Source: Haloarcula marismortui ATCC 43049 (GTDB taxonomy: Archaea > Halobacteriota > Halobacteria > Halobacteriales > Haloarculaceae). Taken from it: DNA of 64,000 nt. Where the stretch lies: positions 930,001 to 994,000 of the forward strand of contig NC_006396.1 of NCBI RefSeq assembly GCF_000011085.1. Direction: 5' to 3'. Under the pieces are notes generated by a model, which saw nothing but the letters and a program-made list of their open reading frames with translations, did no database searches and was not told the DNA's origin. Every line of letters begins with the position of its first letter. The first letter of the stretch is position 1. A program made the position numbers and the translations under genes. Positions 848 to 36,136 of this stretch are shown piece after piece.

Positions 848-1047
848 ACTGCACAGTCAGGTCCCAGACCGCAAAAAGATACGTCTCCCGCTTGATGTCG
901 CTGCTGAATGTGAACGGATTCGCCGCCAACACAGTCCGACCAGATCGGATACTCCGTGCCGGTTTGTGCGAATGCTATCGCGATTCGAACTGGAACGGAA
1001 CGTAGAGTCACCGGCTGCGATGACAGATGGCAAACAGACAAAAGAGG

Positions 1048-1055
1048 TTTATAAG
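1048..1055 (+). promoter_or_regulatory. TATA box of the 1083 gene
   Basis: The sequence TTTATAAG is centred about 31 bases before the ATG at 1083, the spacing expected of a haloarchaeal promoter giving a nearly leaderless mRNA. No Shine-Dalgarno sequence precedes the start codon. Confidence 0.5.
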
Positions 1056-1082
1056 CACAGTTGAAACCGAACAACTGCTACG

Positions 1083-1649: not shown

Positions 1650-1688
1650 GCGAGTGTTCGCCGACGGTTGAAGCGGTTTCTCTCGGGT

Positions 1689-2456
1689 TCAGCTCGCACC
1701 GGGACACCCGAGTTCGTGCGGGTCGTCGTACACCGCTGGCGGAATCGAGATGGCGGCTGGGTCACCGTACTCACTGTACTGGACCGTAATCGTCGCGGTT
1801 GCAGTCGCTCCACGCTGTGAGATTTGTATTCTGAGTTCCGACTGTACCGGTCGGTTCGTTTCCGGATCAAGCCACAGTCGCGCCGTCGCGTTCTCAAGTG
1901 AGCCGCGGCGTAGCTCCATGCCACCAGCCTGTCGGCGATCCATGAGTGACCTGATAGTCTCAGTGCTCGGTGACGCCGTGACAAGGACAGTCCGGTTACC
2001 GTCAAGCGTCTCATTGCCCCGCCAGTAGACGTTCGAGCGTTCGAAGAGCAGCAGTTGCCGATGGAGTGGCGTCGTGGTCGCCCACGGCTCGGAGCGCGAG
2101 ACGTTCTCAACGGCGTAGCCACCCCAAGGGTCCTGACAGCCCTGGTACGCTCTGTACCCGTCGATGTAGGATTCGACCGTTTGGTCTTGTGTCCGCGTCG
2201 TCGCTTGCATCCGTTTTGCGGAAACGTTTACGGCACCATCGCCGTCGACTCTCACAGTCCGTGATTGCTCACCATCCGACGCTGTCACGTGCATCTCCAT
2301 CTCGAATCGGTACGCTTCGACGGCGGCGACGGTGCTGTTCGCCTCCTCGACAGCCGTGACGGCTCGTTCGTCGCTCAGTGGCGGGCTATCAGTCATGAAT
2401 GCACCACACCCGGCAAGGAAGGAAACGAGGCATACGGCGAGGACCAATCGTCGCAT
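1689..2456 (-). CDS. Secreted lipoprotein, possibly LolA/LppX-like fold
   Basis: The 255-residue product starts with a basic tip and hydrophobic segment ending in the lipobox LAGC (Cys at residue 17), so it should be lipid-anchored outside the cell membrane. The mature part carries alternating beta-strand-like segments such as YRFEMEMHVTASDGEQ and TARLWLDPETNRPVQSEL. That pattern resembles haloarchaeal relatives of LolA/LppX-type lipoprotein carriers (half-barrels that bind lipid), but I make this link only from strand pattern and the WLDPET signature. Ligand and partners are unknown. Confidence 0.7.
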   Translation of the reverse strand: MRRLVLAVCLVSFLAGCGAFMTDSPPLSDERAVTAVEEANSTVAAVEAYRFEMEMHVTASDGEQSRTVRVDGDGAVNVSAKRMQATTRTQDQTVESYIDGYRAYQGCQDPWGGYAVENVSRSEPWATTTPLHRQLLLFERSNVYWRGNETLDGNRTVLVTASPSTETIRSLMDRRQAGGMELRRGSLENATARLWLDPETNRPVQSELRIQISQRGATATATITVQYSEYGDPAAISIPPAVYDDPHELGCPGAS

Positions 2457-2759
2457 ACAGTGTTCTCGCTCGCCCGTCCGTCTAAAACATCATGGGTCCG
2501 ATTCGTGACAGCCCAACAGCTGAAAACAGCGCCCTCGCTACATCATAGGGGAAGCTCCCGGCAGAATGGGGTCACTGCGTCGTCAGTAACTCCACTTTCC
2601 CGTTTACGCGCATAGGTTGCAAGCAGGTGGAGACACAAGCACAGAATGCAAGTGATCAGGCCGCTCCGGTTGGAACTGCTGTCTGCCTGGCAATCGTCTC
2701 CGGAGAATCGTTATTTCCGCCTGATATGCAGTTCTGGCTCCAGCGTGGTGCCGACACCG
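2457..2759. other. Intergenic region, no gene seen
   Basis: Roughly 300 bases lie between the lipoprotein promoter side and the end of the next minus-strand gene. I find no frame with haloarchaeal coding character, no tRNA, and no strong inverted repeat. The right half may hold the terminator of the flanking genes. Confidence 0.4.
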
Positions 2760-3275
2760 CTATCTACTGTCGAGTTGGGCTTGCAGGTCCACGACTAGCA
2801 CGTACGCCACCAGCGTGAGGACGAGCACCGAAAACCCGGTCCAGAGATGCAGATTCACTGCGCCCTCACCGACCCACTGTGGGACTGGCGAGCGTGCGAC
2901 GGGCGGCTGGAGCGGCCAGAGCAAATCCGACGACACGTACAGGTTCGGAGGCAAGAGTTGTTGATTATCGGCTACCAGATGTGAGAGGTGGGCGAACGCA
3001 AACGCCGTTCCAAGTCGAGTCCGGTCCGTTCGGACTGCGTACGCGATGACGACGATCGACAGCGGAATTGCGAACGGGAGCGAGTGCATAAACACCCGAC
3101 CGGAGGGGATGAGATGAAGTTCGTACGCTAACGGCTTGTCGATGAGATCTGGGAACTGGCTGCCGAAAAACGTGACTGCGACCAACTGGAGCGACGGGAG
3201 GTGTCTGTCCCGGAGGAGTGCGTATACTGCGACAGGGAGGAGGGCGATAATGAAATGCTCGCTCGGGAGGACCAT
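2760..3275 (-). CDS. Membrane-bound metal-dependent hydrolase family protein (YdjM/DUF457-like)
   Basis: I choose the ATG at 3275 (MVLPSEHFIIALLPVAVY), giving 171 residues; the open frame extends further upstream but the extra residues do not look coding. Four hydrophobic segments alternate with polar motifs GSQFPDLIDKP, HSLPF and HLSHLVAD, which match the His/Asp pattern (D-KP, HS, H-L-D) of the YdjM-type membrane-bound metal-dependent hydrolases. Family substrates are not established. The gene is isolated and has no obvious operon partner. Confidence 0.75.
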   Translation of the reverse strand: MVLPSEHFIIALLPVAVYALLRDRHLPSLQLVAVTFFGSQFPDLIDKPLAYELHLIPSGRVFMHSLPFAIPLSIVVIAYAVRTDRTRLGTAFAFAHLSHLVADNQQLLPPNLYVSSDLLWPLQPPVARSPVPQWVGEGAVNLHLWTGFSVLVLTLVAYVLVVDLQAQLDSR

Positions 3276-3441
3276 TCTCTGGTTAGTAGTGCTGAGGTCG
3301 TGTGCGAGGAAATGCCTTGTGTGGGAGAGTCTGCGTGTCGCATAGTATTCCGGTGAAGAGTGGACAGTGCGTCCATTATAATGGCTTCCACCATGTACAG
3401 TGTCTTTGGTAGCAGTTGGACGACTTTGTGTCGAGGAGAAG

Positions 3442-3699
3442 TCAGTCACTCCGATCAAGATGCTGGTGTACTTTTTCAGTAATCCCCACGGCTTCCACCG
3501 TTTCGCTAAGTGTCTGGATAGCTATCATGGATGCCTCGCTTAGGTGAGTCTCGCCGGAATACATCTTGATTTGAAATGTGCCGGTCACTGCCAGTTTGAC
3601 AGATTCACGTTCCAGACACACCCAACAACGAGTGAAAACACAGGACCCAACCGGCGGCTCGAGTAATCGCCAGAGCAGAACCCGGGATGCACTCAGTTC
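3442..3699 (-). pseudogene. Possible 3' remnant of a broken gene
   Basis: A minus-strand frame without an ATG is open from about 3699 and ends at a TGA at 3442. Its last 55 codons read like true protein, including the stretches TGTFQIKMYSGETHLSEASM and VEAVGITEKVHQHLDRSD. The upstream part overlaps an origin-type repeat at 3613-3639 and loses coding character. I read it as the 3' end of a gene cut off when the accessory island was assembled. The family is not recognised. Confidence 0.3.
3613..3639 (+). repeat. ORB-like repeat, distal left copy 1
   Basis: The copy begins CAGACACACCC and contains CGAGTGAAAAC. It matches the repeat at 6672-6698 closely and belongs to the same family as the repeats around orc1. 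It lies about 3.4 kb from the predicted origin core and points the same way as the other left-arm copies. Confidence 0.55.
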
Positions 3700-4160
3700 T
3701 CAAGAAACCTGTTCAGTTCGCTGAATTCAGCAGGCGACAGAATGACCTCGGTATCGAATGCATCAAACCGTTCAAAGTCGTCATCAATTGTCAACACAGT
3801 ATTCACTCCTTCGTCGATCGCTACCTGAGCATAGTACCCGTCCCATCCACCAACATTTGTTTCACTCGCCTGTGAAAACCCATCACGAACTGTACTCTCG
3901 GACAGTCCCCCGTTCCAATGGATTCGCTTTGCATCCATGAAATTCTGTAGCAGTCGAGATGCCTCTGCGTTTGAACGGCTGTAGTACGTCGTCAGAACGG
4001 TGTGCGCTCCGAACAACGCAGGATACGGAACAACGGCATCTATATCGCCAGCGATGGCATCCCGAACGTACGTAAGTGCAGCCTCACGAACAGGGGCCTC
4101 AGTGTGTGCGAGTGCAATTACTCCGACATCGAAGAGATACGGGCCACCAGCATCACTCAT
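3693..4160 (-). CDS. PIN-domain toxin (VapC-like)
   Basis: Starting at the ATG at 4160 this is a 155-residue single PIN domain. The N-terminal PYLFDVGVIALAH supplies the first acidic residue, and the C-terminal VLTIDDDFERFDAFD supplies the terminal Asp cluster of the four-acid Mg2+ RNase site. VapC-type toxins cleave tRNA or rRNA to arrest growth. It lies immediately 3' of an AbrB-type antitoxin on the same strand and overlaps it by 8 bases, which implies translational coupling and confirms the pair. Codon use is less GC-rich than in the chromosomal genes to the left, consistent with acquisition. Confidence 0.8.
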   Translation of the reverse strand: MSDAGGPYLFDVGVIALAHTEAPVREAALTYVRDAIAGDIDAVVPYPALFGAHTVLTTYYSRSNAEASRLLQNFMDAKRIHWNGGLSESTVRDGFSQASETNVGGWDGYYAQVAIDEGVNTVLTIDDDFERFDAFDTEVILSPAEFSELNRFLEN

Positions 4161-17997: not shown

Positions 17998-18029
17998 ACC
18001 GGGCTATAGAACGCCGCCACGGTAAAGCA

Positions 18030-18407
18030 TCATGTCCGCCCGGTCAGGTCGTCCAGTTTATCCAGATACGCCTCGCGGGGCACCTGATACAGCGAGCGGT
18101 AGTCCAGTTCGCCGTCGGCAAACCGAGTGGCCAGGTCCACAGCGCCCTCGACGGCAGCCTCGCGGCGCTCATAGGAATCGGCGTCGCGCTCGACCTCGGG
18201 CTCCAAATAGAAGGTGACGTACCAGCTTTCCCCGGTCCGGTCAGCGCCGGGGCGGCGGGTCCGTTTCCCGCGCGTGAGGTAAATAGTCGGCAGGCACGGT
18301 GCCGGGAACTGCTCCGAGTCGAATACGTCCGGGCGGTACGCGAGGATGAGCTTCTCGTCGGTCTCGTTCCACACCGTCCAGTCATCGGGGAGGCCCGACA
18401 GGTCCAT
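18030..18407 (-). CDS. DUF5820-like haloarchaeal protein
   Basis: I use the ATG at 18407 (MDLSGLPDDWTVWNETDEKL), giving 125 residues; upstream residues in the open frame do not look coding. The product is a small soluble alpha/beta protein with PTIYLTRGKRTRRPGADRTG and WYVTFYLEPEVERDADSY segments. It resembles a conserved haloarchaeal family (DUF5820 as I remember it). No function is known and no catalytic motif is visible. Confidence 0.72.
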   Translation of the reverse strand: MDLSGLPDDWTVWNETDEKLILAYRPDVFDSEQFPAPCLPTIYLTRGKRTRRPGADRTGESWYVTFYLEPEVERDADSYERREAAVEGAVDLATRFADGELDYRSLYQVPREAYLDKLDDLTGRT

Positions 18408-18488
18408 ACAGCCGAATCGGTGTGGACGGGCAAGAATCCGCTGGTCCGTCCCAGGCCCAGATACCGGCACTCGGTTGCACGACGGCAA

Positions 18489-19008
18489 CAGCGATGCGCT
18501 GAGTTGCGCTGCCGTGTGTCCCGTTCTCGTTCGTCAATCAATCCGGCAACAGATTCACATCAATCCAGCGCTAAACATTGGCCGACCCACCAGAGAGAAC
18601 AGTTGACAACCGACACAGTATATAAACCAATGCCAAAATAATGAGACATGGTAACATGGGTGTGCCCCGCCATCCCCGCATTCGGACGACTATCGGACCG
18701 GAATTTATCGGCGGTATGCACATAAGAGGGCAAAGTTCTTATATGAACAGAACTCGTACGGTAAATAGTATCGGAAACAGTTCGACACTGCTTCCCGTTA
18801 CCACACCAGGTCGGAACAGTCCCCGTGTTCCGTCCGGCAGGTCAGCCATGGAAGGGCACACGCGTCACCCCGCAGTGAAGGGTGAACCAGCGGCTGTTTG
18901 CGGTCACATCTGCAGCGGACAGCACCGACACCGAGGAGCGACACAGCCCCGAGACCAGCCCGCGACAGTCGGTGGTCGCCTGCAGCCACGACGAACTACT
19001 GAGATAGC
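18489..19008 (+). promoter_or_regulatory. Promoter and long leader of the prkA operon
   Basis: TATATAAA at 18619-18626 and CTTATATG at 18738-18745 are TATA-box candidates on the plus strand. Either would leave a leader of roughly 240-360 bases before the prkA ATG (19009). The leader contains a perfect 7-base inverted repeat CGGAACA-gtccccg-TGTTCCG at 18812-18832. No convincing coding frame is present in it. Confidence 0.45.
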
Positions 19009-21081
19009 ATGAGCAAGAACAACGAGACACTCGAAGCGCTGAGCAAGGAGTACCGTGACACGATACCGGCGGACCTCCGGAAGACGAACACGTTCGACTG
19101 GTATCTGCAACAGTTGTACGACGAGCCGAAGATCGCCCGCAACGCCCACCAGCGCGTGGCGGATATGTTCGACTACTACGGCAAAAGCTATGACGAGGAG
19201 GCCGGCGTCGTCGAATACGAACTGGCGAGTGAGGACCCGCTCCACGACGGTGAGAACACCTTCTACGGACGGGTCATCCACGAGGCGATGCACGAGTTCG
19301 TCAACAAGGTCAAATCCGGCGCTCGCGGGCTCGGCCCCGAGAAGCGTATCAAGCTTCTGCTGGGGCCGGTCGGGTCGGGGAAGTCCGATTTCGACCGGCA
19401 GGTCCGGCGCTACTTCGAGGACTACACCAGCCGGGACGAGGGCCGGATGTACACGTTCCGCTGGACGAACCTCTGTGATGTCATCCACGATCAGGACCCC
19501 GCCGACGACGTGGTCCGGTCGCCGATGAACCAGGACCCGCTCGTGCTCCTCCCACAGGCACAGCGGGACAAGGTCATCGAAGACATCAACGCGGAACTCG
19601 ATGCCCCCTACACTATCCGAAACGAGCAGTCGCTGGACCCCGCCTCGGAGTTCTACATGGACCGCCTGCTGGCCGAATACGACGACGACCTCCAGGCCGT
19701 CCTCGAAAACCACGTCGAGATCGTCCGCTTCGTCGCTGACGAGAACCAGCGCCGCGGAATCGAGACCTTCGAGCCCAAGGACAAGAAGAATCAGGACGAG
19801 ACAGAACTCACCGGCGATGTAAACTACTCGAAGATCGCCATCTACGGCGAGAGCGACCCGCGAGCCTTTGACTACTCCGGGGCGTTCTGTAACGCCAACC
19901 GCGGCATCTTCTCCGGCGAGGAGCTGTTGAAGCTCCAGCGGGAGTTCCTCTATGACTTCCTCCATGCCAGTCAAGAACAGACAATCAAGCCAAAGAACAA
20001 CCCCCGTATCGACATCGACCAGGTCATCGTCGGCCGGACGAACATGCCCGAGTACCGGGACAAGAAGGGCGACGAGAAGATGGAGGCGTTCAACGACCGG
20101 ACCAAGCGCATCGACTTCCCGTACGTCCTCCAGTACGAGGCTGAGGCCAACATCTACCAGAAGATGCTGCGCAACGCCGACCTACCGGATATACAGGTCG
20201 AGCCCCACACGCTGGAGATGGCGGGCCTGTTCGGCGTCCTCACCCGCATCGAGGAGCCCGACAACGAGTCCATCGACCTCGTGCAGAAGGCGAAAGCCTA
20301 CAACGGCGAAATCGACGAGGCCGACGACGTCGACGTGAAGAAACTCCGTGAAGAGGCCGAGAAGATGGCCGACATCGGCGAGGGGATGGACGGCGTCTCT
20401 CCGCGGTTCATCGGCGACGAGATCGCCGAGGCCATCATGGACTCGATGCACCGGAGCCGGGACTTCCTCTCGCCGCTGACGACGTTCAATCACCTCGAAG
20501 GCAACCTCGAGAACCACGGCTCTATCGACGAGGAGTCGTTCAGCAAGTACTACCGCTTCCTCGAACTCGTCCGCGAGGAGTACAAGGAGCGGGCCATCGA
20601 GGACGTGCGTCATGCGCTGGCCTACGACATGGACGAGATCCAGCGCCAGGGCGAGAAGTACATGGACCACGTCATGGCCTACATCGACGACGCGACCGTC
20701 GAGGACGAACTCACCGGCCGCGAGCAAGAGCCCGACGAGCAGTTCCTGCGCTCCGTCGAAGAGAAGCTGAACCTCCCCGAGGACCGCAAGGACGACTTCC
20801 GGCAGGAAGTGTCGAACTGGGTGTCCCGTCGCGCACGCGAGGGTGACACGTTCAACCCACAGGACAACGACCGCCTGCGCCGCGCCCTCGAACGCAAGCT
20901 CTGGGAAGACAAGAAACACAACATCAACTTCTCCGCGCTGGTCTCCAGTTCGGAAATGGACGACGAGGAGCGCAACCAGTGGGTTGACGCTCTCATCGAG
21001 CAGGGTTACTCCGAGGAGGGCGCCAAGGAAGTGCTCGAGTTCGCTGGTGCGGAGGTCGCCAAAAGCGAGATGGAAGAGTAA
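19009..21081 (+). CDS. prkA: PrkA-type serine protein kinase 1
   Basis: The 690-residue protein has a PrkA AAA domain with Walker A LLGPVGSGKSDFDRQ (about residues 120-134) and the conserved context DGENTFYGRVIHEAMHEFVN. The characteristic region NRGIFSGEELLKLQREFLYD follows, and a helical C-terminal PrkA kinase-like domain completes the family length (about 640-690). PrkA/YeaG proteins work with YeaH and SpoVR in nutrient and nitrogen stress responses in bacteria; here all partners are encoded consecutively. The next gene starts on its stop codon (TAATG). Confidence 0.93.
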   Translation: MSKNNETLEALSKEYRDTIPADLRKTNTFDWYLQQLYDEPKIARNAHQRVADMFDYYGKSYDEEAGVVEYELASEDPLHDGENTFYGRVIHEAMHEFVNKVKSGARGLGPEKRIKLLLGPVGSGKSDFDRQVRRYFEDYTSRDEGRMYTFRWTNLCDVIHDQDPADDVVRSPMNQDPLVLLPQAQRDKVIEDINAELDAPYTIRNEQSLDPASEFYMDRLLAEYDDDLQAVLENHVEIVRFVADENQRRGIETFEPKDKKNQDETELTGDVNYSKIAIYGESDPRAFDYSGAFCNANRGIFSGEELLKLQREFLYDFLHASQEQTIKPKNNPRIDIDQVIVGRTNMPEYRDKKGDEKMEAFNDRTKRIDFPYVLQYEAEANIYQKMLRNADLPDIQVEPHTLEMAGLFGVLTRIEEPDNESIDLVQKAKAYNGEIDEADDVDVKKLREEAEKMADIGEGMDGVSPRFIGDEIAEAIMDSMHRSRDFLSPLTTFNHLEGNLENHGSIDEESFSKYYRFLELVREEYKERAIEDVRHALAYDMDEIQRQGEKYMDHVMAYIDDATVEDELTGREQEPDEQFLRSVEEKLNLPEDRKDDFRQEVSNWVSRRAREGDTFNPQDNDRLRRALERKLWEDKKHNINFSALVSSSEMDDEERNQWVDALIEQGYSEEGAKEVLEFAGAEVAKSEMEE

Positions 21082-23363
21082 TGACAGGCCAGGAGTACAT
21101 CGACCGCGCGGACGAGTCACTCGACGCCGCCTACGAGGCCCCGATGAGCCTCGCGGAGTACGTCGACACCGTCCTTGAAACGCCACAGGTTGCGGCCCAC
21201 GCCTCGAAGTACCTCCTCGACGCCATCGAGGACGCAGGGACGCGGATGGTCATCGAGGAGGGCGAGGAGAAGGAGCGCTACCGCTTCTTCGACGACCCGT
21301 ACAACGACGGTGAACACGCCATCCTCGGCAACACCGAGGTGCTGAACGCCTTCGTCGACGACCTCCGCTCGATTGCGGCGGGCCGCGGGAAAGACGAGAA
21401 GATCATCTGGCTGGAAGGCCCGACAGCCACGGGGAAATCCGAGCTGAAGCGCTGTCTCATCAACGGCCTGCGGGAGTACTCGAAAACACCCGAGGGCCGG
21501 CGCTACACCGTCGAATGGAACGTCGCCGGGGCCGGCAACGACGCCACCAGCATGACCTACGGGAATGCGGCCATCGAGGACGAGGACGACTGGTATGAGA
21601 GTCCCGTTCAGGCCCACCCGCTGACGGTGTTCCCCGAGGACGTACGGACAGACCTGCTCGCCGAGGTCAACGAGCGCCTCGACGACCACATCCCCATCCG
21701 CGTCGACGGCCAGCTGGACCCGTTTTCGCGGGAAGCCTACGACTTCCTCGAAGAGCAGTACCGCCGGCAGGGCGAGACGGACCTGTTCTCGGCGGTCACC
21801 CAGCCATCGCATCTCCGGGTGAAGAATTTCGTCGTGGACGTGGGCCGCGGCATCGGCATCCTCCATTCCGAAGACGAAGGAACGCCCAAAGAGCGCCTCG
21901 TCGGCTCGTGGATGCACGGGATGCTCCGCGAACTCGATTCGCGGGGCCGGAAGAACCCACAGGCGTTCAGCTACGATGGCGTCCTCTCGCAGGGCAACGG
22001 CCTGCTGACTGTCGTCGAGGACGCCGCCCAGCACGCCGACCTGCTCCAGAAGCTGCTGAACGTCCCCGACGAGTCCCACGTCAAGCTCGACAAGGGCATC
22101 GGGATGGACGTGGACACCCAGCTCGTCATCATCTCGAACCCGGATCTTGAAGCCCAGCTGAACAAGCACGCCGACCGCGAGGGGCAGGACCCGCTGAAGG
22201 CGCTGAAACGCCGGCTTGACAAACACGAGTTCACGTATCTGACGAATCTCTCACTGGAGGCCCAGCTCCTGCGCCGCGAGCTGACAAACGAGACGCAGGT
22301 CTGGGACCCCGAGACGTGGGACGAACTGGAGACGTGGATTCAGGAGCCACTGAGTATCTCGGTCCGGGATCAGGTCGAGACGGCCACCGAGAAGGAGCTG
22401 GCCCCACACACCGTCGAGTCCGCGGCGCTCTACGCTGTCGTCTCGCGGCTCGATAGCGCCGAAATCCCGACCGGGCTGGACCTTGTGGACAAGGCCCTGT
22501 TGTTCGACCGGGGCTACCTGATGGAGGGTGACGAGCGCGTCGACATCGACGACTACGACCTGGAGACCACCGCCGAAGACGGCGACCACGGTATCCCGGT
22601 CACCTACGTCCGCGACATCATCGCTGACCTGCTGCACGAGCCACAGGACCGGCACCACCCCGACCTCCCGGTCGAACACGTGCTGATGCCCCGAGACGTG
22701 CTCAACGCCGTCGCTGAAGGGCTTTCGGACGCGCCTGTATTCTCGACCGGTGAGGCCACGGAGTACGAGGAACGCGTCGTGACTGTCAAGAACTACATCT
22801 TCGGCCAGCAGGAACAGGACGTGCTCGACGCGATGATGCGGGACAAGCGCGTCGACGAGGCGACCGTCGAGGAGTACATCGAGCACGTCTACGCCTGGGA
22901 ATCGGACGACCAGATCGAAAACGAGCGGGGCGAACGCGTCGACCCGGACCCGCTGAAGATGAAGGTGTTCGAGATCGAGCATCTGGGCCGGTTCGACGAG
23001 AAGAACTACGACGGCAACGAGCCCGACCACGCCGTCGAGCAGTTCCGCACCGACAAGATCATTACGGCACTGAACCGCCACGCGTGGCAGCGCCGCGACG
23101 AGGAGTTCCGTGTCGGCGACGTGAACCCCAAGGAGATTCCGGTCATCAACACCGTCCTCGGGAGCTACGACTGGGACGACATCCAGCGGACCTACGAGGA
23201 CTTCGAGCCCGGGCAGTGGGACAACCCGCCGTCCGGGACCGAGACGGCTCGGCTCAAGGCGAAGACGCTGGACAACATGGTCGAGATGTTCGACTACACG
23301 GCGGCGTCGGCCGAGTTGACGAGCCGACACGTCATGAGTCAGGTGAGTTATAGATGGGACTAA
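21081..23363 (+). CDS. PrkA-type serine protein kinase 2
   Basis: This is a second, divergent PrkA paralogue of 760 residues. Walker A is [17 protein letters not shown] (about residues 113-129), and the PrkA signature region [20 protein letters not shown] aligns with the DYSGAFCNANRGIFSGEE part of the first kinase. Long C-terminal helices end in [20 protein letters not shown]. Tandem non-identical PrkA genes suggest a heteromeric kinase pair. It overlaps prkA1 by one base and the YeaH gene by ten, so translation is tightly coupled. Confidence 0.9.
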
Positions 23364-24667
23364 AAGACGACCTCGAACGGTACCGCGACGTGGGCGAGGA
23401 GCGCCGACAGGACCTCTCCGAGTTTATCCAGTACGGCGATCTGGGCCAGTCTCGGGGCGACTCGGTACGCATCCCGATCAAGATCGTCGACCTCCCTGAA
23501 TTCGAGTACGACCAGCGCGACCAGGGCGGCGTCGGCCAGGGCGAAGGCGCCGAAGAGGGTGACCCAGTCGGCCAGCCACAGCCCCAGCCCGGCGACGACG
23601 GTGATGAGGACGGCGAACCCGGCGAGGAGGGCGGCGAACACGAGTACTACGAGATGGACCCCGAGGAGTTCGCCGAGGAACTCGACGAACAACTGGGGCT
23701 CGACCTCGAACCGAAGGGCAAGAAGGTCATCGAGGAGAAAGAGGGTGACTTCACGGACATCACCAGATCCGGCCCCTCCTCGACGCTTGACTTCGAGCGC
23801 CTGTTCAAGAAAGGGCTCAAGCGGAAGCTCGCGATGGACTTCGACGAGGACTACGTCCGCGAGGCGCTCAAAGTCGACGGCTGGGGGCCGGCCACGGTCT
23901 ACGAGTGGACCCGCGAGCAGAACATGCCCGTCTCGAAGGCGTGGATCGACGACGCGTATGAGGAACTGCCAAGCGAGGAGACAGCCGTCTGGGACTCCAT
24001 CGAAGAGATGGAAGACAACGTCGAGGAGGTCGAGACCTCCCAGCGTATCCGCCGGGAAGGAGTCAACCAGATCCCGTTCCGCCGCGAGGACGAACGCTAC
24101 CGCTACCCCGAAATCGTCGAGGAACGCGAGAAGAACGTCGTGGTCGTGAACATCCGGGACGTTTCCGGGTCGATGCGCCAGAAGAAGCGGGAACTGGTCG
24201 AACGGACCTTTACGCCGCTTGACTGGTATCTCACAGGCAAGTACGACAACGCCGAGTTCGTCTACATTGCCCACGACGCCGACGCCTGGGAAGTCGACCG
24301 CAACGAGTTCTTCGGCATCCGCTCGGGCGGGGGCACCCGTATCTCCAGCGCGTACGAACTCGCCGCCGAAGTGCTCGAAGAGGAGTACCCCTGGAGCGAG
24401 TGGAACCGCTACGTGTTCGCGGCGGGCGACAGCGAAAACTCCTCGAACGACACCGAGGAGAAGGTCATCCCGCTGATGGAACAGATTCCGGCGAACCTCC
24501 ACGCCTACGTGGAGACCCAGCCGAGCGGGAACGCCATCAACGCCACCCACGCCGAGGAGGTCGAACGCAACTTCCGGGACGCCGACAACGTCGCGGTCGC
24601 GTACGTCTCCTCGCCGGAGGACGTGGTGGACGCCATCTACGACATACTCAGCACGGAGGACCAATGA
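23354..24667 (+). CDS. YeaH/YhbH (DUF444) von Willebrand-type protein
   Basis: The 437-residue protein has the DUF444 N-terminal signature ([20 protein letters not shown] and [15 protein letters not shown]), then a Gly/Glu/Asp-rich linker (about residues 55-100). A C-terminal VWA-like domain carries the metal-ion-dependent adhesion motif IRDVSGSM (about residue 262), plus [20 protein letters not shown]. YeaH is the usual partner of PrkA/YeaG. It overlaps the kinase 2 gene by 10 bases and the SpoVR gene by 4. Confidence 0.92.
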
Positions 24668-26703
24668 ACAACGATAGATTCGCGAAACAGCGCGTAGCCG
24701 ATGACCTCGACGAACCCGTCGAGGAGGCTGGCAATCTCGCCAGAAAGCTCGGTCTGAAGCCGTATCCGGTGAACTACTGGATCGTCGACTACGACGAGAT
24801 GAACGAACTCATCGCCTACGGCGGGTTTCAGCAGCGATACCCGCACTGGCGCTGGGGAATGCAGTACGACCGCCAGCAGAAGCAGGGCCAGTTCCTCGGC
24901 GGCAAGGCCTTCGAAATCGTCAACAACGACGACCCAGCCCACGCATTCCTTCAGGAATCGAACACGCTGGCTGACCAGAAGGCCGTCATCACCCACGTCG
25001 AAGCCCACGCGGACTTCTTCGCCAACAACGAGTGGTTCCGGATGTTCACCGACGGCTCCTCCCGGACGACGACCGATGAGTCCGGCGAGGACCGCCGCCG
25101 CGGCCCTGACGCCGCCGGGATGCTCGCCCGCCACGGCGACACCATCCAGGAGTACATGCAAGACCCCGACATTGAGCGGGCCGAGGTCGAGCGGTTCATC
25201 GACCACGTCCTCTGTCTGGAGGACAACATCGACCAGCATATTCCCTACAGCCCGGTCGAGACGGTCCCCGAGGAGTTCGAGGACATTGAAGGGGCGGACG
25301 TGACCGAGCAGCTGGATGATCTTGAACTCTCCGAGGAGGTCAAACGGCAGGTGTTCGACGAGGAGTGGCTGGACGCCCAGCGCGACGACGACGAGAACGT
25401 CACGTTCCCCGCCGAACCTGACAAGGATGTTCTCGGGTTCCTCCGCAAGCACGGGATGCAGTACGACGCGGACGCCGAGCGCGCTACGGAGATGGAAGAT
25501 TGGCAGATAGAACTGCTGGAACTGCTCCGCCGGGAGGCCTACTACTTCGCCCCACAGAAGATGACGAAGGTGATGAACGAGGGGTGGGCCTCCTACTGGG
25601 AATCCCTGATGATGACCGGCGAGCAGTTCGCCGGCGACGACGAGTTCATCCTCTACTCCGACCACATGTCGAAGGTACTGGGGTCGGGCGGGCTGAACCC
25701 CTACAGCCTCGGGCTGGAAATCTGGGAGTACGTCGAGAACACGGAGAACCGCCGCGAGGTCATCGAGCGTCTGCTCCGGGTCAAGGGCATCACCTGGCGG
25801 AACTTCGACGACAGCGTCGATTACGAGATGGTACAGGGCCGTCTCGAACCCCCAGCGTGGCTCACCGACATTCCGGGCCACCTCGACGACCTCGACCCCG
25901 AGGACGCCCGTGTCGACGCCGACGGACTGGCGGCGGCCCGCGACGGCGAGTTCGACGTGGAACAGTACCCCTGGAAAGTCCTGACCTACGAGGGGCTGGC
26001 CCAGCGGCACTACTCGCTGGTCAAACCCCAGTACCGCGGCTTCGTCTCCCGGGTCGGGCAAGAGGAACTGGAACGGACCGCCCGCTACATGTTTGACGAT
26101 TCGCGCTACGACAGCGTTGCGGAGGCACTCTCGGACGTGGACTACACCCGCGGTTGGGAGCGGATGCGGGAAATCCGGGAGAGCCACAACGACGTGACCT
26201 TCCTCGATGAGTTCCTCACCCAGGAGTTCGTCGACGACAACGACTACTTCACCTACGAGTACACCCACGCCTCGGGCGACTACCGGGTGACCTCGACAGA
26301 CCACGAGGATGTCAAGAAGAAACTGATGTTGCAGTTCACCAACTTCGGGAAGCCAACCGTCGTCGTCGAGGACGGCAACTACCAGAACCGCAACGAACTG
26401 CTGCTCGCTCATCAGTACAACGGCGTGATGCTCGACATCGGGCAGGCCAAGGAAGTGCTCAAGCGCACCTTCGAACTCTGGGGCCGCCCGGTGAACCTCC
26501 TGACCATCGTCAAGGAGTTCGACGACCACGACGTGGAGGTCGCCAAGCGCCGCGACCGCGAACCCGAGCCCGAAGAAATCGGCAAGCGAATCCGCTACGA
26601 CGGCGACGAGGTGACCGTCACTGACGTGGACTGGGCCGAGGTCGAACACCTCACCGCGACCGACATCGATTACAACACCAAGCCGGACGAATGGCTGGCC
26701 TGA
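24664..26703 (+). CDS. spoVR: SpoVR family protein
   Basis: The start at 24664 overlaps the YeaH stop (ATGA), giving 679 residues. Family hallmarks include [58 protein letters not shown] and [14 protein letters not shown]. SpoVR was named for spore cortex formation in Bacillus, but it is widespread in non-sporulating archaea beside PrkA and YeaH; its biochemical role is unresolved. This is the last gene of the operon, with an intergenic gap of 109 bases after it. Confidence 0.93.
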
Positions 26704-26812
26704 GCGCTGTGTGGCACCCCCGATTCGAGCGGAAACCAACTCCGCCACGCCGTCGGGTATTTCTCGCAGTACCGACCCAAATCGTATGTGAAATCGGTCC
26801 TAACCCCGGAAC

Positions 26813-27199
26813 ATGAGTGGCGCGACCGTCGCCGACTGCATGACCGAACCAGTGCTGACAGTGACTGCCGGCGAACCGGCGCTCGACGTTGCAGCGGCGA
26901 TGGATGACCAGTCGATAAAGTCAGTCGTCATCGTCGACGAGGCGTGTCAGCCGGAGGGCATTCTCACCTCGACAGACTACGTCCGGATGACCGCCGACGG
27001 CGTCGACCCCACTGAAGCGACTGTGGGGGAGCACATGACGACCGATATCGTCACCACGTCGCCCGAGACGGCGCTTTCGGCGGTCGCAAGCACAATGTGG
27101 GACAACAATATCAGTCACGTGCCGGTCGTCGACGACGAGAACCGGGTGACGGGTATCCTCTCGGCCACGGACCTCACCGTCTATCTCGCTGACGACTGA
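26813..27199 (+). CDS. Two-CBS-domain protein
   Basis: The 128-residue protein consists of two CBS motifs: VADCMTEPVLTVTAGEPALD with SVVIVDEACQPEGILTSTDY, then EHMTTDIVTTSPETALSAVA with VPVVDDENRVTGILSATDLT. CBS pairs bind adenosyl ligands (AMP, ATP, SAM or c-di-AMP) and act as stand-alone sensors. Partner unknown. The gene is monocistronic. Confidence 0.88.
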   Translation: MSGATVADCMTEPVLTVTAGEPALDVAAAMDDQSIKSVVIVDEACQPEGILTSTDYVRMTADGVDPTEATVGEHMTTDIVTTSPETALSAVASTMWDNNISHVPVVDDENRVTGILSATDLTVYLADD

Positions 27200-27293
27200 A
27201 TGAGACGGTTGGAGGAGAACCGCCGTCGCACCGGAGACGGTTGTGTGACAGTCTCTGCCAAATATTTTTCATTGTCTGGGCTAACCCGCGGCC

Positions 27294-28619
27294 ATGGAGC
27301 GAACGGCACACACGCCACCGGGGCTTCCGGTTGTGGGGAATCTGCCACGACTGGCGAGGGACCCATTGCGTTTTCTCACCGGGATGCAGGACGCCTACGC
27401 AAACCAGTACCCGCTCGTCCGGGTCGACCCACAGGTTGGACAGTCAGTCACAGTTGTGCTTGACCCCGACATCGCCCATGAGGTCCTCGCGGACCGTGAC
27501 CGGTTCCGCCGCCCAAACGTCGGAGCGCAGGAGCAACGGCGACAGGGACTGGTATCGAGTGACGGCGCGCTCTGGGAGCAACAGCGGTCAGTGCTGGACC
27601 CGGAGTTCGTCGGCGGCCGGCTGGCGGACTACGCCGAGATTGCCGGCGACACTCTAGAGGAGACGCTGACAGCCTGGCCTGAGTCGGGGCGCGTAGACCT
27701 GTTCGAAGAGCTGTCAATACTGACGATGCGCGTCATCACACGGTCGCTGTTCAGCCAGGACACCGACCGCGAACGCGGGGAAACCGTCCATGAAGCGCTG
27801 GCCGCGCTTAATGATGAGTTCGACGCCTCTGTGTTCGATTTGGTCCTGCCCGAGCAGTTACAGTCCGGCGTCTCCGCGGAGTTCGAGGAAGCCGATGCAG
27901 TACTTGACTCGGTGGCAACGGAGTTCGTGGACTGGCATCTCAACCACGAGGACCCGCCCCGGGATGTGATTACTGCGCTTATCGACGCAAAGGCAGACCC
28001 GGACATCGAGCTCTCCGAGAACGAGCTCATCGACCAGACCGTGCTGTTCATGACTGGTGGCCAAGAGACGACAGCACTGACGATTGCCTACGCGTTCTAC
28101 TGGTTGTCTCAGAACCCGGCTGCAAAGGAGCGTGTCAGGGCGGAGGCACAGGATGTGCTGGACGGGGGACAGCCGGGATGGGCCGACCTGTCCGACCTCA
28201 CCTACACGGAGCGTGTTGTCAGGGAGACGCTGCGGCTGACGCCGGCGGTCTGGAGCGTGTCTCGCGAGGCTCGGGAGCCGGTCACGCTTGCAGGAACCGA
28301 CCTAGACGCAGGCGAGTTTGTCATGCTCCCCATATACGCTCATCACCGGGACAGTCGCGTGTGGTCGGACCCCCTGACGTTCGACCCGGACCGGTGGGCC
28401 GGTTCAGCCTCCCGCGGCGATAGCGCGTACTACCCCTTCGGCAGCGGGCCACGGGTGTGTATCGGTCGCCAGGTCGCCTTGACCGAGGCACAGTTCGCCC
28501 TTGCGCACGTGCTGCAGCACTACGACGTACAGGTGACTGCGGATGAACTTGATTTACAGCCGAGTGTGACACTGCGGCCGTCGGGACCGATGGAAGCCGA
28601 GATATCAGCCCTTGAGTAG
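27294..28619 (+). CDS. Cytochrome P450
   Basis: The 441-residue soluble P450 has the proline-rich start HTPPGLPVVGNLPRLARDPL. Its oxygen-binding I-helix is LFMTGGQETTALTIAYAF (about residues 252-269), the ExxR motif is ETLR, and the heme-thiolate loop YPFGSGPRVCIGRQVALTEA has Cys near residue 388. Haloarchaeal enzymes of this kind (CYP174-like by my recollection) lack an assigned substrate; carotenoid, fatty acid or sterol-like oxidation are possibilities. No ferredoxin reductase gene is adjacent. The start is the ATG at 27294, preceded by an AT-rich AAATATTTTTCATTG element. Confidence 0.93.
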   Translation: MERTAHTPPGLPVVGNLPRLARDPLRFLTGMQDAYANQYPLVRVDPQVGQSVTVVLDPDIAHEVLADRDRFRRPNVGAQEQRRQGLVSSDGALWEQQRSVLDPEFVGGRLADYAEIAGDTLEETLTAWPESGRVDLFEELSILTMRVITRSLFSQDTDRERGETVHEALAALNDEFDASVFDLVLPEQLQSGVSAEFEEADAVLDSVATEFVDWHLNHEDPPRDVITALIDAKADPDIELSENELIDQTVLFMTGGQETTALTIAYAFYWLSQNPAAKERVRAEAQDVLDGGQPGWADLSDLTYTERVVRETLRLTPAVWSVSREAREPVTLAGTDLDAGEFVMLPIYAHHRDSRVWSDPLTFDPDRWAGSASRGDSAYYPFGSGPRVCIGRQVALTEAQFALAHVLQHYDVQVTADELDLQPSVTLRPSGPMEAEISALE

Positions 28620-31443: not shown

Positions 31444-31563
31444 ATGCACCTAAATGATACACGGTACTCTCTGTCGGCTCATGTAGATCCGACCATCGAG
31501 GAACAGCTGCCTGCAGAAATAGCCGTCGCACGTACACCGGGACTTCGACATAGCCAGGAATGA
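31444..31563 (+). CDS. Small 39-residue protein coupled to capC
   Basis: An ATG at 31444 opens a 39-codon frame beginning MHLNDTRYSLSAHVDPTIEE and ending HSQE, whose TGA overlaps the capC ATG by the ATGA arrangement used throughout this genome. A TATA box (GTATAAC near 31408) lies at leaderless distance. Composition is acidic and protein-like. Bacterial poly-gamma-glutamate synthases need a small subunit (PgsE/CapE); this ORF has no transmembrane helix, unlike those, so homology is not claimed. It could alternatively be a leader peptide controlling capC translation. Confidence 0.45.
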   Translation: MHLNDTRYSLSAHVDPTIEEQLPAEIAVARTPGLRHSQE

Positions 31564-32708
31564 TACTCTCCGGAGCAATTGTTATCACTGGCCTGGTACT
31601 TGGGGTGACAGCCACGCAGTTGTGGGATCTCAGGCTGTCAGGGGTTATTGTCGTTCCCCTGTTTGCACTGTACACACTATATGACGTCTCATCCCTGCCA
31701 GTGCTGGTCGTCAGTGTCGCGGCTGCGTACTGGTGCCTTACGGTCGTTTCCGAACGGACACTGTTGTACGGTCGAAGGCTATTATATACCGCAATCTTGT
31801 TTGGCGCGGTCATTCCGTGTATTGCCGTCGCCGTACTAGCATCGTTCGGCTACTACACCAGCTCGATTGAGGTGTATGCGATCGGAAGCATTCTCCCGGG
31901 AGTCGCAGCGTATAACCTCCACCGACTTGAGTTTGAGCGACTGGTTGATGATCTCGTCGCGACCGGCGCTGCGTACATTGGCCTGCTCATACTCGGTTCT
32001 GCACTGGTCTCGGAGACCACACTGGCACTGCTCGGTACGGACGCAACGCTCCTGTTTTCGCCAGCATCTGATGTCGCACAGTTCCGGAATGTCGCTGTTG
32101 CAGGCGGTAATTTCGGGATGATGCACGGTCCGGCAGTCGGCCTGAGCGTTCTGTTCCTGGGACTACTGGTATCGTTGTTCGTGGAGACGGTCTGGAACGT
32201 CCGGCTATACGGGATTATCGCCCTCCCGCTACTGGCACTCTTTGTTGTCGCCAAGCCTTCCGTGTTTTTGCTCTATGCCGCCTTCCTGCTGGCGACGTAT
32301 GCGATCATTCAGTTCATCCATCGACGGACATTGGTGTATGGGCGGGTCCTCGTTTCAATGGCAGCCGTCACTGCTGTGTTGCTGTCCGTCCCTGCCGAGA
32401 TGCTCACCGCTCTTCCGGGCAATTACCTGTTGTTTACCGCGCTGATCGGCGGAATCGGTGCATACAACGTCCACCGCCTCTCTGTGACCGAACTCCGCCA
32501 GTCGACCCGGCTTTCGGCAGCCATTTTTGCCGTATTTGTGCTGCTGGTGTCAGCACTGACGGCTCCCCCACCAGTGCCCGGTGGAATGGGATGGATTGCG
32601 CTGGTGACGGTTGTAGCGCTCGTCCCCGGCGGGCTGACGGCTGCCCGGCTTGAACAGCAACGACGACTCGATAAGCGATGGCGACCAGTCAGGAGAGACT
32701 CGGTATGA
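31560..32708 (+). CDS. capC: CapC/PgsC-type poly-gamma-glutamate synthase membrane subunit, tandem duplicate
   Basis: The 382-residue integral membrane protein consists of two PgsC-like halves. Half one has WDLRLSGVIVVPLFALYTL, SERTLLYGRRLLYTA and LPGVAAYNLHRLEFERL. Half two repeats these as WNVRLYGIIALPLLALFVV, HRRTLVYGRVLVSMA and IGGIGAYNVHRLSVTEL. Bacillus PgsC is a single unit of about 150 residues. PgsC works with PgsB to polymerise and export gamma-linked glutamate. A long hydrophobic helix pair links the halves. Its last codons overlap capB by four bases. Confidence 0.85.
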   Translation: MILSGAIVITGLVLGVTATQLWDLRLSGVIVVPLFALYTLYDVSSLPVLVVSVAAAYWCLTVVSERTLLYGRRLLYTAILFGAVIPCIAVAVLASFGYYTSSIEVYAIGSILPGVAAYNLHRLEFERLVDDLVATGAAYIGLLILGSALVSETTLALLGTDATLLFSPASDVAQFRNVAVAGGNFGMMHGPAVGLSVLFLGLLVSLFVETVWNVRLYGIIALPLLALFVVAKPSVFLLYAAFLLATYAIIQFIHRRTLVYGRVLVSMAAVTAVLLSVPAEMLTALPGNYLLFTALIGGIGAYNVHRLSVTELRQSTRLSAAIFAVFVLLVSALTAPPPVPGGMGWIALVTVVALVPGGLTAARLEQQRRLDKRWRPVRRDSV

Positions 32709-33871
32709 ATCTCAAAAAATGTATCCAGCGGCTGCGCAAGGTTGCGAACCGAGGACCGTCGCACAAAGCCCGATTAGAGAACATAGACGAGAAGATCGTC
32801 GTAACCGGCACCCGCGGGAAATCCGGCGCAACGCGCTGGCTCTACGAGATTCTGTACGGTCGCGGACGAGACGCGTTCGCGAAGATTACCGGGAATCGGC
32901 CGCTCGTTCTGCATGACGGGGAATCCCACCCGATTGAGCGAGGGCGGCGAGTCACGCTGTACGAAAACGAGGCCCAGCTGCGACAGTACGCACCGGTCGA
33001 AACAGCAATCTTCGAGAATCAGGCGATTGGGGAGTACACCACGCGAACGGTCCATCAGCGGTTCACGGACCCCGATGTCATCTTTCTCACCAACATCAGG
33101 AGCGATCACCTCGACTGGCTCGGGGACACTCCCACACAGATAGCCCGGTCGTTCGCCAGAACGATTCCCGATGGTGTGACGCTCGTCGTCGGCGAACAGC
33201 GTCCGACTCTTCGCGCAATGCTGAAGCGAGAACTGGAGGAGACTGATGTTCAGATCCGCTGGGTGCTGGTTCCGAAGGCACTACAGAATGTGCCGGGCGC
33301 AGAAACGATACTCGGTCTGAATGACGTGCTTGAAGCACTTGGCGAACAGCCGCTCTCTGACCGGCAAATAGAGGCCTATATCGATGAAATGCAGGTCAGA
33401 TGGACAACACTGGCCGACGGCCGCGTCTATAATGCTGCGTCAGTCAACGACATCGATAGTACCGAAATCGTCCGCCGGGCACTCGATGATAATGATGTTG
33501 ACACTATCCAGCCGCTGATATACTTGCGTCCAGACCGCCGTGCCAGAACAGCGTCGTTTCTGTCCTATCTGGACGGGTTGTATTCGGATGATGTGTTCGA
33601 GGTAACGCACGCTGTTGGCCCGCACGCGGAACTGTTTGACAATCAGGCGTCGTTCCCGGTTGCGACGCACGATGCGTCGAAATCTGCAAGTGCTGTGTTA
33701 GACGCAGCACTGTCACCGGGCTGGCCGGTTTTCATCATGGGGAACACTGTCGCCGATTTCATGCGCGACCTCGAAGCCGAAATCGAGGCACGGCGGGTAG
33801 ACAGTAGCCAGGGAATGCCGGAGAAATCCACGTCAGCGAACGAGAAACGAGCAATCGAACGTCCACAATAA
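32705..33871 (+). CDS. capB: CapB/PgsB-type Mur-ligase-like poly-gamma-glutamate synthase
   Basis: I start at the ATG at 32705 (MNLKKCIQRLRKVANRG), which overlaps the capC stop; an ATG at 32678 is also open. The 388-residue protein is a Mur-ligase-family amide ligase. The P-loop is VTGTRGKSGATRWLYEIL, AIFENQAIGEYTTRTVHQRF supplies the metal-binding region, and FLTNIRSDHLDWLGDTPTQ is the typical NxxxDHxDxxG motif. The end (PVFIMGNTVADFMRDLE) matches PgsB. It would ligate glutamate units using ATP. The same operon continues into the 33881 gene, 9 bases later. Confidence 0.9.
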   Translation: MNLKKCIQRLRKVANRGPSHKARLENIDEKIVVTGTRGKSGATRWLYEILYGRGRDAFAKITGNRPLVLHDGESHPIERGRRVTLYENEAQLRQYAPVETAIFENQAIGEYTTRTVHQRFTDPDVIFLTNIRSDHLDWLGDTPTQIARSFARTIPDGVTLVVGEQRPTLRAMLKRELEETDVQIRWVLVPKALQNVPGAETILGLNDVLEALGEQPLSDRQIEAYIDEMQVRWTTLADGRVYNAASVNDIDSTEIVRRALDDNDVDTIQPLIYLRPDRRARTASFLSYLDGLYSDDVFEVTHAVGPHAELFDNQASFPVATHDASKSASAVLDAALSPGWPVFIMGNTVADFMRDLEAEIEARRVDSSQGMPEKSTSANEKRAIERPQ

Positions 33872-33880
33872 CGATTACCA

Positions 33881-35119
33881 ATGACAGATGAGACGACCAA
33901 TAACGACGGCGCACAGTCAACAAACACCCCTGCTACCACTGGCGACGACAGTAGCCAGTCGGCCACCGAGGCAGAAACAACAGCTGAGGACACAGCGGCA
34001 GACGTAAGCGCGAAAACCAGTGGCATCCGCCGACGGGCGGTAATCGCTGGGACGCTCGGCTCTCCCGCTCTGTTCGGGGCCGGCTTTGCTGCCGTAGATT
34101 CATTCGGCATCCCGAGTATGCCGAGTCTCATCGGTGTCGGGGCTGCCAGTCCGTTAGAGCAGGCAAGAAGCGGCACTGCGACGGCTGGTCAGATGGACAG
34201 TGCGACCGTCACGGTCGACGAACAGGCGGCACAGAATCTCCCAACGAACCGCTACAGACAACTTCACATTGCGGAGCCGGTCCGCAATATGCTCGACCGC
34301 GACCGTGGCGATCAAGTGCGTGTTACTCGCGGAAACGACGCCGCAGTCTATACGATCAGTGAAACTATCAGTGGAGACGCAAGTACCGTTCGGACCTCAG
34401 CAGAGGGCAAATGCCGCGTTTCCTTCTACGAGGACGGGAGCTTCTCTGACGAACGGCGATGGGGTTCCCTGCGCGGGGATGATAACTGTAGCCTCGCCGG
34501 CGAAGCGTTTGACGTCGAGATTGATCCGCGAGTCCCTGCTGCAGACCTGAGCCCCAGTGAAGCAAAGGAACGCGGTGAACTCATCGAAACGCTCAATATG
34601 GGTGGGAGTGAGTACGCCGTCCTGGCACCGCACGGCGGACAGATACAGCCGTTCACCGGCGGGCAGGTCACACGTCTCCGTTCGGAATTCTCCGATGCCA
34701 GTGTCACGTCCTGGAAGCTTCAGGGATACGGGTCGGACACGAGTTTCTACCGGTGGTACGTCCCATCGGCAGAGCTCTCGACTATCTGCTATCCGCGTCT
34801 CGCCGAATTGTCCGAGCAAACATACGACTACGCAGTCAGTTTCAACGGTATCAACGAGAAAACGATCTATGTCGGTGGCGCTGCACCCGAAGACATCCGA
34901 CAGTCGGTTGCCGATTCGATTGACAGTGCGCTGCCACACGACGGGTCGCCGGTCAAACTGGGTGAGAGTCACTACGCAGCAGACAGCCCACAGACGCTCG
35001 TCAATCGGGTTACTGAGAACCAATCGAACGGGATCTGGATCGGACAGCCCATCGCTGACAGGCGAAAGTACAGTGACTTGATCGCTGCTGCTGTCGGATC
35101 GGCGCTGTTCGACGGCTGA
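33881..35119 (+). CDS. Tat-exported poly-gamma-glutamate hydrolase-family protein with lost active-site residues
   Basis: The 412-residue protein has a Ser/Thr/Asp-rich cytoplasmic extension (1-47) and a twin-arginine-type signal GIRRRAVIAGTLGSPALFGA. An N-terminal accessory domain (about 100-200) precedes a PghP/DUF867-type hydrolase domain. Compared with its paralogue at 35204, the zinc-site candidates differ: His251 is kept, but the Glu of HGGxIE is Gln256, a conserved His is Tyr293, the His of the FHG motif is Asn322, and the Glu of GVQIE is Gly388. The fold seems preserved (YAVLAPHGGQIQ, YVGGAAPEDIRQSV). I infer a non-catalytic polymer-binding or export role. It is third in the cap operon; no PgsA-like gene is present. 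Confidence 0.75.
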   Translation: MTDETTNNDGAQSTNTPATTGDDSSQSATEAETTAEDTAADVSAKTSGIRRRAVIAGTLGSPALFGAGFAAVDSFGIPSMPSLIGVGAASPLEQARSGTATAGQMDSATVTVDEQAAQNLPTNRYRQLHIAEPVRNMLDRDRGDQVRVTRGNDAAVYTISETISGDASTVRTSAEGKCRVSFYEDGSFSDERRWGSLRGDDNCSLAGEAFDVEIDPRVPAADLSPSEAKERGELIETLNMGGSEYAVLAPHGGQIQPFTGGQVTRLRSEFSDASVTSWKLQGYGSDTSFYRWYVPSAELSTICYPRLAELSEQTYDYAVSFNGINEKTIYVGGAAPEDIRQSVADSIDSALPHDGSPVKLGESHYAADSPQTLVNRVTENQSNGIWIGQPIADRRKYSDLIAAAVGSALFDG

Positions 35120-35203
35120 AGACGAAACCGCGCTCGGATCCAATCGCTCCGCCATAGTTTCTGGAGACGGGAGCTAAGCGGTTGGCTGGGCCCGCGCTGT
35201 CTC

Positions 35204-36136
35204 CTACAACACTTCAAATACATCGGCAACTGCGTCAGCAACGGTGTTTCTTCGTTCGTCTCTGACCGCCCACGGTTGCTCAATCTGGACGCCGTCGCTC
35301 CCGGATGCGGTGATCCAGTTGATGATGTTCTCCGGCGAATCGCCGGCCCGTGAGCCATCAGTAGCAAGGCGAACGTCACAGTCGACAACCTCGGAGATGG
35401 CGTCGCGAACGTCTCTACGGAGCCAGGTGGGTGCAGCGCCGCCAATACCCACGTGAGACTCTGACCAGCCATGGAAGGCGACGGCGTGGTCGAACTCCCG
35501 ATCAGAGATATCTTGTAAGGCCGGGAACGAGTCCGGGTGGATAGCTGTCGAGGTAATGTGCCACCGACGGAACGCGCCGCCGCCGGGCGACCATCCCGAA
35601 CTACACCATTTGGTTGCGTCCAGTTGGGCTGTCATGCGTTCCGCCTGCGTGTCAGTTCCCCACTCAATGTATCCACCGTGTGGCGCAAGGACTGCCAGTT
35701 CAGACTGCTCCGACTCAGTTGTCCGTTCTATAAACCCACCTTCTGCTTTGGCTTGCTCTTCGTCCAGATTCGAATCAATAACGTCTGCGCTAACAGCAAC
35801 GCGGAACGACCCGCTTTTCGCTCGCAGACGCTCTCTCCCATTGTTGTTGATGTATCCGAACGTATCGTCCGAGAGAGCAACAGTGAATACTGCGGCCTCG
35901 CCGTCGTACACGAGTCGAACCTGCTGGTCCGCCTGAACACCGAGAGCGTCCATCATCGACTGTGGAAGCCGGCACCGCTCCGCAGAGCCGATATCTTCGG
36001 TCTCTCTCATCTGCACAGTCGTATTATTACGGCCGGAGCCGCGGCCTGGATTTCCACTCACAGCAGTTGCACCGAGTGTAAGAATGGTACTGCCAGCACT
36101 TGAGAGAACAGTTCGTCTTGTGATTCGATCCATCAC
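35204..36136 (-). CDS. Tat-exported poly-gamma-glutamate hydrolase (active-site residues intact)
   Basis: The 310-residue protein has a Tat signal (RITRRTVLSSAGSTILTLGA) and an N-terminal domain like that of the 33881 protein. The hydrolase domain carries VLAPHGGYIEWG (His153, Glu158), RRWHITSTAIH (His193), AVAFHGWSESHVGIGGAAP (His222) and DGVQIEQP (Glu286), the pattern expected of phage PghP-like zinc hydrolases that cut gamma-linked polyglutamate. It would act outside the cell to trim, release or recycle the polymer. It converges on the cap operon and has its own AT-rich promoter near 36137-36170. Confidence 0.78.
   Translation of the reverse strand: MMDRITRRTVLSSAGSTILTLGATAVSGNPGRGSGRNNTTVQMRETEDIGSAERCRLPQSMMDALGVQADQQVRLVYDGEAAVFTVALSDDTFGYINNNGRERLRAKSGSFRVAVSADVIDSNLDEEQAKAEGGFIERTTESEQSELAVLAPHGGYIEWGTDTQAERMTAQLDATKWCSSGWSPGGGAFRRWHITSTAIHPDSFPALQDISDREFDHAVAFHGWSESHVGIGGAAPTWLRRDVRDAISEVVDCDVRLATDGSRAGDSPENIINWITASGSDGVQIEQPWAVRDERRNTVADAVADVFEVL

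Follow-up and report, generated by a model that had tools for sequence, protein, structure and literature searches.

In a 64,000-nucleotide stretch of the Haloarcula marismortui ATCC 43049 genome (NC_006396.1, positions 930,001 to 994,000; hereafter the window), the gene following capB in a capC-capB operon encodes what is best explained as a catalytically dead descendant of an L-gamma-polyglutamate (L-PGA) hydrolase, recruited as a surface-anchored, L-PGA-binding accessory subunit of the CapC-CapB synthase, with a probability of about 0.6. As 12 genera carry this dead relative at the same position, it is probably a functional but non-cutting component of the machinery for polymer synthesis. 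The features concerned are given in Table 1, and the two homologous proteins of the window are named 33881 and 35204 after the first coordinates of their genes.

The operon and its two hydrolase homologues

The initial annotation placed the 33881 gene in a capC-capB operon, and a fused CapC with two PF14102 matches together with CapB was indeed identified upstream of it. The CapC reading frame scores 52.8 bits against TIGR04011, which is under the equivalog cut-off, and is assigned to CapC/PgsC by its PF14102 membrane domain. CapB is likewise below its equivalog cut-off (TIGR04012, 86.5 against 222.7 bits) and is assigned to CapB/PgsB by a Mur-ligase middle domain with a P-loop (GTRGKSG motif) and by PgsB similarity. 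These NCBIfam cut-offs were set on bacterial PgsC and PgsB, and since both proteins fall under them the term PGA synthase is a family-level call only. The likelier start of capB is the ATG at 32705, which overlaps the capC stop as ATGA and is preceded by GGAG (sequence at 32690-32710), and a 4-base overlap with capC is also found in most capB orthologues. In nearly all haloarchaeal CapC loci the double CapC fusion occupies a single ORF of about 380-420 aa, while in genomes G200, G096 and G388 capC consists of two separate ORFs lying side by side. A search for a terminator between the convergent genes 33881-35119 and 35204-36136 found none. At 18001-28000 the window has a strong positive AT skew (0.13-0.25) over approximately 10 kb, unlike its remaining part. 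A scan for related loci with a single protein gave a match only in Haloarcula vallismortis, at 95%.

Table 1. Coordinates in the window of the capC-capB operon, the convergent paralogue and the relevant parts of the 33881 gene. Codons are labelled with PghL numbering.
Feature	Position	Strand	Description or basis
capC	31560..32708	+	Integral membrane subunit, 382 aa, two fused CapC/PgsC domains; PF14102 twice, 122 bits
capB	32678..33871	+	Mur-ligase-like gamma-PGA synthetase; PF08245 28.2 bits, TIGR04012 86.5 bits
Pseudo-hydrolase (predicted)	33881..35119	+	412 aa, third operon gene, 9 nt after capB; PF05908 E 1.5e-9
Twin-arginine and hydrophobic segment, aa 51-75	34031..34105	+	RR in 22/22, Pro62 invariant
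Double-psi beta-barrel (DPBB) domain, about aa 105-215, Cys-bearing insert	34193..34525	+	AlphaFold2 model; Foldseek to 7dg9, 7di1
PghP-like domain without catalytic machinery, aa 225-405	34553..35095	+	pLDDT mostly >90; Arg394 kept
Gln256 codon, replacing Zn ligand Glu46	34646..34648	+	Alignment
Tyr293 codon, replacing His77	34757..34759	+	Alignment
Asn322 codon, replacing Zn ligand His102	34844..34846	+	Alignment
Gly388 codon, replacing catalytic Glu165	35042..35044	+	Alignment; dead-family profile against PghP 3a9l
Arg394 codon, equivalent of Arg171	35060..35062	+	22/22 of the dead clade, 59/68 intact paralogues
Intact gamma-PGA hydrolase paralogue (predicted)	35204..36136	-	310 aa, Tat-type signal, DPBB and PghP domain; PF05908 57 bits

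Both hydrolase-like reading frames proved real at the positions initially given, and the shared domain plan first noted for them was confirmed. PF05908 matches the 33881 protein with 38 bits and the 35204 protein with 57 bits (gathering cut-off 22), the two align at 34% over 200 aa (E 2e-30), and the AlphaFold2 models of both have the PghP fold plus an N-terminal double-psi barrel. With the 33881 model, the top Foldseek matches were PghP 3a9l (E 2.4e-8), 21dc and PghL 5onj, and the protein is thereby homologous to PghP in sequence as well as in fold. The 35204 protein matches 3a9l and 5onj in phmmer, and its model (pLDDT 89.5) matches 3a9l in Foldseek. A weak PF25489 match on the 33881 protein was discarded.

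In the pairwise alignment, H251, Q256, Y293, N322 and G388 of the 33881 protein stand opposite H153, E158, H193, H222 and E286 of the 35204 protein, equivalent to H41, E46, H77, H102 and E165 of PghL and to H40, E45, H78, H103 and E165 of PghP. The four substitutions and the retained histidine of the HGG motif were exactly as initially annotated, and the paralogue keeps all five residues. In PghL, H41, E46 and H102 are the Zn ligands and H77 and E165 are two further needed residues, and alanine mutants at all five positions are deleterious in PghP (PMC6506827). By alignment with these solved and mutagenized relatives, the positions altered in the 33881 protein are Zn ligands and catalytic residues: H251 is kept, and Q256 and N322 take the places of the other two ligands. 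Because G388 and Y293 replace Glu165 and His77, the protein is classed as a PF05908 homologue but not as an active-enzyme member. When the dead-family profile was aligned to PghP 3a9l, Gly was again found at the catalytic Glu, and Arg at the position of Arg171. PghL is L-specific, its Arg171 anchors L-gamma-PGA by the side chain, and R171S abolishes activity (PMC6506827).

The capB-linked clade in haloarchaea

PF05908 and CapC were searched for in 392 haloarchaeal genomes, and the loci obtained were ORF-called and aligned. Among the 90 non-redundant PF05908 proteins, 22 are encoded directly downstream of capB, in 21 genomes from 12 genera and 6 families, which leaves 68 others. None of the 22 has the catalytic Glu or the equivalent of Asn151, and H41 is kept in 21, E46 in 6, H77 in 8 and H102 in 10. 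All five residues are present in 67/68 of the others, as are the catalytic Glu (67/68) and the Asn151 equivalent (67/68). The sole protein without synthase linkage and with an altered active site (HEGHT; G208, locus L175, 4181-4795) is on a very long branch and may reflect an alignment error. Synthase linkage and loss of Glu are associated with a Fisher p of 4e-20, a value that ignores relatedness, and the 22 proteins form a single clade with support of 100/97 in a tree with masked active-site columns. The pseudoenzyme reading is in this way strongly supported and general. As to the initial question whether the third gene of haloarchaeal capC-capB loci always lacks these residues, 22/22 of the capB-linked homologues are without the catalytic Glu. 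Searching plasmids brought up no more than a distant PF05908 protein.

Four members on separate deep branches read H,E,H,H,G at the five positions; the catalytic Glu was lost first, because these branches hold H,E,H,H and yet have Gly for Glu. The change of Zn ligand E46 to Q arose three times within the clade. The Arg171 equivalent is kept throughout and the Ser80 equivalent is S or T in 22/22, which together with the fold suggests that the 33881 protein would bind the polymer. The binding of PGA may on the other hand be weakened or lost in the dead clade, because other side chains contacting PGA are changed: H77 in 14/22, N151 in 22/22 and T79, to Pro, in 22/22. Changes specific to the clade were also found near the old active site, where Gln284 is replaced by an aromatic residue, Asn270 is lost and Gln389 is present (22/22 each). 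These conserved changes, together with the repeated occurrence of E46 to Q and of H77 to Y, which suggests directed change, would fit a protein that gained a different, metal-independent catalysis, for instance a CapD-like one by which PGA is transferred or anchored to an acceptor at the surface. No clade-specific conserved nucleophile (Ser, Cys, Asp or Glu) was seen in the groove, however, and such an activity is considered highly unlikely.

That the dead gene is simply decaying and functionless, as the lost active-site residues and the decayed copies in G200 might suggest, is contradicted by purifying selection and can be given almost no credence. The ORF is full-length in 21 genomes, 32 columns are invariant among 18 sequences of the family, and dN/dS between Haloarcula species is 0.15-0.21, similar to that of capB and capC. 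The G200 copies are a 3′ remnant fused into the capB ORF (C1:632437-632547) and a second copy with two in-frame TAG codons (C1:2569386-2569976, L202). In G200 the dead gene decays with its synthase, because the remnant lies in the locus with a split capC and the second copy is ridden with stops.

In the dead clade, conservation of the twin-arginine and hydrophobic segment is 45%, equal to that of the hydrolase-like domain; intact paralogues that are exported show 30% for the signal and 46% for the domain. The segment is probably an uncleaved membrane anchor, because it is conserved like the domain and unlike the signals of the exported paralogues, but it may yet be a Tat signal that is cleaved off. 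C178 and C203 covary perfectly in the family, with both present in 10 members and neither in 12. Further cysteine sets occur at the S196 and N325 columns (19/22) and at the V112, D354 and C-terminal columns (9/22, all in 33881 numbering), and all of these sets covary without exception, a pattern to be expected if disulfides form outside the cell.

Relation to CapB, to the intact hydrolase and to CapA

The CapB proteins of the 22 loci all fall within one clade of 26 members, which has an SH-aLRT of only 81. Four members of this clade have no intact dead gene. One is G200, and the others, the locus of G185 and the second copies of G351 and G230, are close relatives of each other; because these three are without it, the dead gene is not universal for this synthase type. 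Distances of the dead protein correlate with those of CapB with r=0.87 (Mantel p 2e-4), a co-divergence that is also expected of any two linked and vertically inherited genes. Operon position, co-divergence and purifying selection, all read from sequence, support a synthase-coupled role. The presence of a diverged relative of the dead hydrolase in third position at the remaining capC-capB loci was considered and rejected, as the dead-family HMM matched none and the sampled neighbours were transposases or unrelated. A transposase-like ORF, up to 558 aa long and nearly the same from genome to genome, follows capB by 80 bp at L070, L072, L073 and L079.

The dead protein could alternatively be a protective decoy or a regulator. 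By covering PGA, or by forming a pair with the intact hydrolase, it would determine the length of the chains or protect the coat against hydrolases of the cell itself and of viruses. An intact paralogue adjoins the dead gene in 11/22 loci, and PGA hydrolase domains also occur in the tailed Haloarcula viruses HCTV-1 and HCTV-16, that of HCTV-1 keeping all five residues. The linkage in every case is nevertheless to capB, and in seven loci with an adjacent hydrolase the correlation of distances with that hydrolase was 0.39, lower than the 0.80 obtained with CapB in the same loci. The dead protein is not there merely to regulate an intact hydrolase, because carriers G120 and G166 have none, and a decoy or regulatory function is judged improbable.

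No PF09587 (CapA/PgsA) match was found anywhere in the window's genome (4,274,642 bases, 9 contigs), in agreement with the original remark that a PgsA/CapA-type gene is missing. The accompanying proposal that the dead homologue could take its place as polymer-binding or export subunit stood only in part. In its full form, such a replacement would make the protein the third and essential synthase subunit of a lineage that lost CapA. The operon slot and the layout of N-terminal anchor and external domain are the same, CapA can follow capB in other CapB clades (L082, L092, L110), and PF09587 is absent from the window's genome and from 8 other carriers. The 33881 protein itself has no PF09587 domain, as hmmscan gave PF05908 and otherwise a single sub-threshold hit. 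Against the proposal, PF09587 is present in 12 of the 21 carrier genomes, right beside the dead gene at L067, L068 and L138, and most other haloarchaeal capC-capB loci (about 48) have neither gene. No anti-correlation of the dead gene with CapA, as a replacement test, was seen across the capB loci. In B. subtilis PgsA is dispensable for L-rich PGA, which PgsBC can make without it (PMC6029982), and no replacement is therefore needed; archaeal PGA is all-L (PMC3815933). For these reasons CapA replacement is possible in some lineages but is not a general explanation, and for the 33881 protein it appears unlikely, though less so than a decoy function; an export role is unsupported. In other CapB clades, a PF09587 gene of 570-850 aa was observed before or after capC-capB at L082, L087, L092, L098, L110, L124, L125, L129 and L134, and a 122 aa 'capA' match at L133 was discarded as weak.

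Proposed role and relation to known systems

Under the preferred reading of an accessory synthase subunit, a hydrolase descendant would have been recruited once, by an ancestor common to several lineages of haloarchaea. The sequences themselves show a single origin, with the catalytic Glu and the substrate Asn missing from all members and the Zn ligands lost stepwise later. The twin-arginine and hydrophobic segment would hold the protein at the outer membrane face, where the old substrate groove, with its Arg171 and Ser80 equivalents, may grip the emerging L-PGA chain without cutting it. Such a grip would keep the chain engaged with the synthase or attached near it, and trimming or release of the polymer would fall to the intact convergent paralogue 35204. 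A bolder proposal, held tentatively and rated slightly under even odds, is that haloarchaea have a class of L-PGA synthase whose third core subunit derives from an L-specific hydrolase, has lost catalysis but kept an L-stereospecific grip, and serves the growing chain as an acceptor or processivity clamp outside the cell.

The zinc gamma-PGA hydrolases PghP and PghL (YndL; PF05908, MEROPS M86) resemble the 33881 protein in fold, family, HGG motif and Arg171/Ser80 equivalents. The dead clade differs from them in that the catalytic Glu and Asn151 are missing from all members and the Zn ligands from most, in the added DPBB domain, anchor and Cys pairs, and in its constant position beside capB. 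PgsA/CapA, the third subunit of bacterial PGA synthases, shares the slot after the capC/capB pair and the membrane-anchored layout with an external domain, whereas the 33881 protein is from the unrelated PghP-like family and members of its clade are found together with CapA at some loci. B. anthracis CapD and B. subtilis PgdS are likewise products of PGA-processing genes coupled to the synthase locus, but they are active enzymes, of GGT type and CHAP type, and their folds are unrelated (PMC6506827). ORF 129 of HCTV-1 (phrog_4175; NC_021330.1, L198, hydrolase-domain gene at 933-4070) has a PF05908 domain 34% identical to the 35204 paralogue, and differs in being viral, 1045 aa long and unaltered at the catalytic positions; its presence hints at a PGA coat on Haloarcula hosts, through which viruses have to pass.

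In the open-access literature, no account of a PGA-linked pseudoenzyme of this kind was found, although an earlier mention is possible, nor was any record of PGA in Haloarcula. A survey of PghP homologues from 2015 listed five archaeal homologues that occur together with PgsB, without drawing a conclusion from them (PMC4497714).

Pseudoenzymes recruited to the pathway opposing that of their ancestor are instructive, and the dead clade displays an order of loss, first the catalytic Glu and then the metal ligands, the latter more than once by the same substitutions. For annotation it carries a warning, as 22/90 haloarchaeal 'poly-gamma-glutamate hydrolase' matches are predicted to be inactive and to belong to synthesis, not degradation. 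For the question of how archaea may polymerise and hold L-PGA without PgsA, the 33881 gene is a defined, single-gene candidate in culturable haloarchaea.
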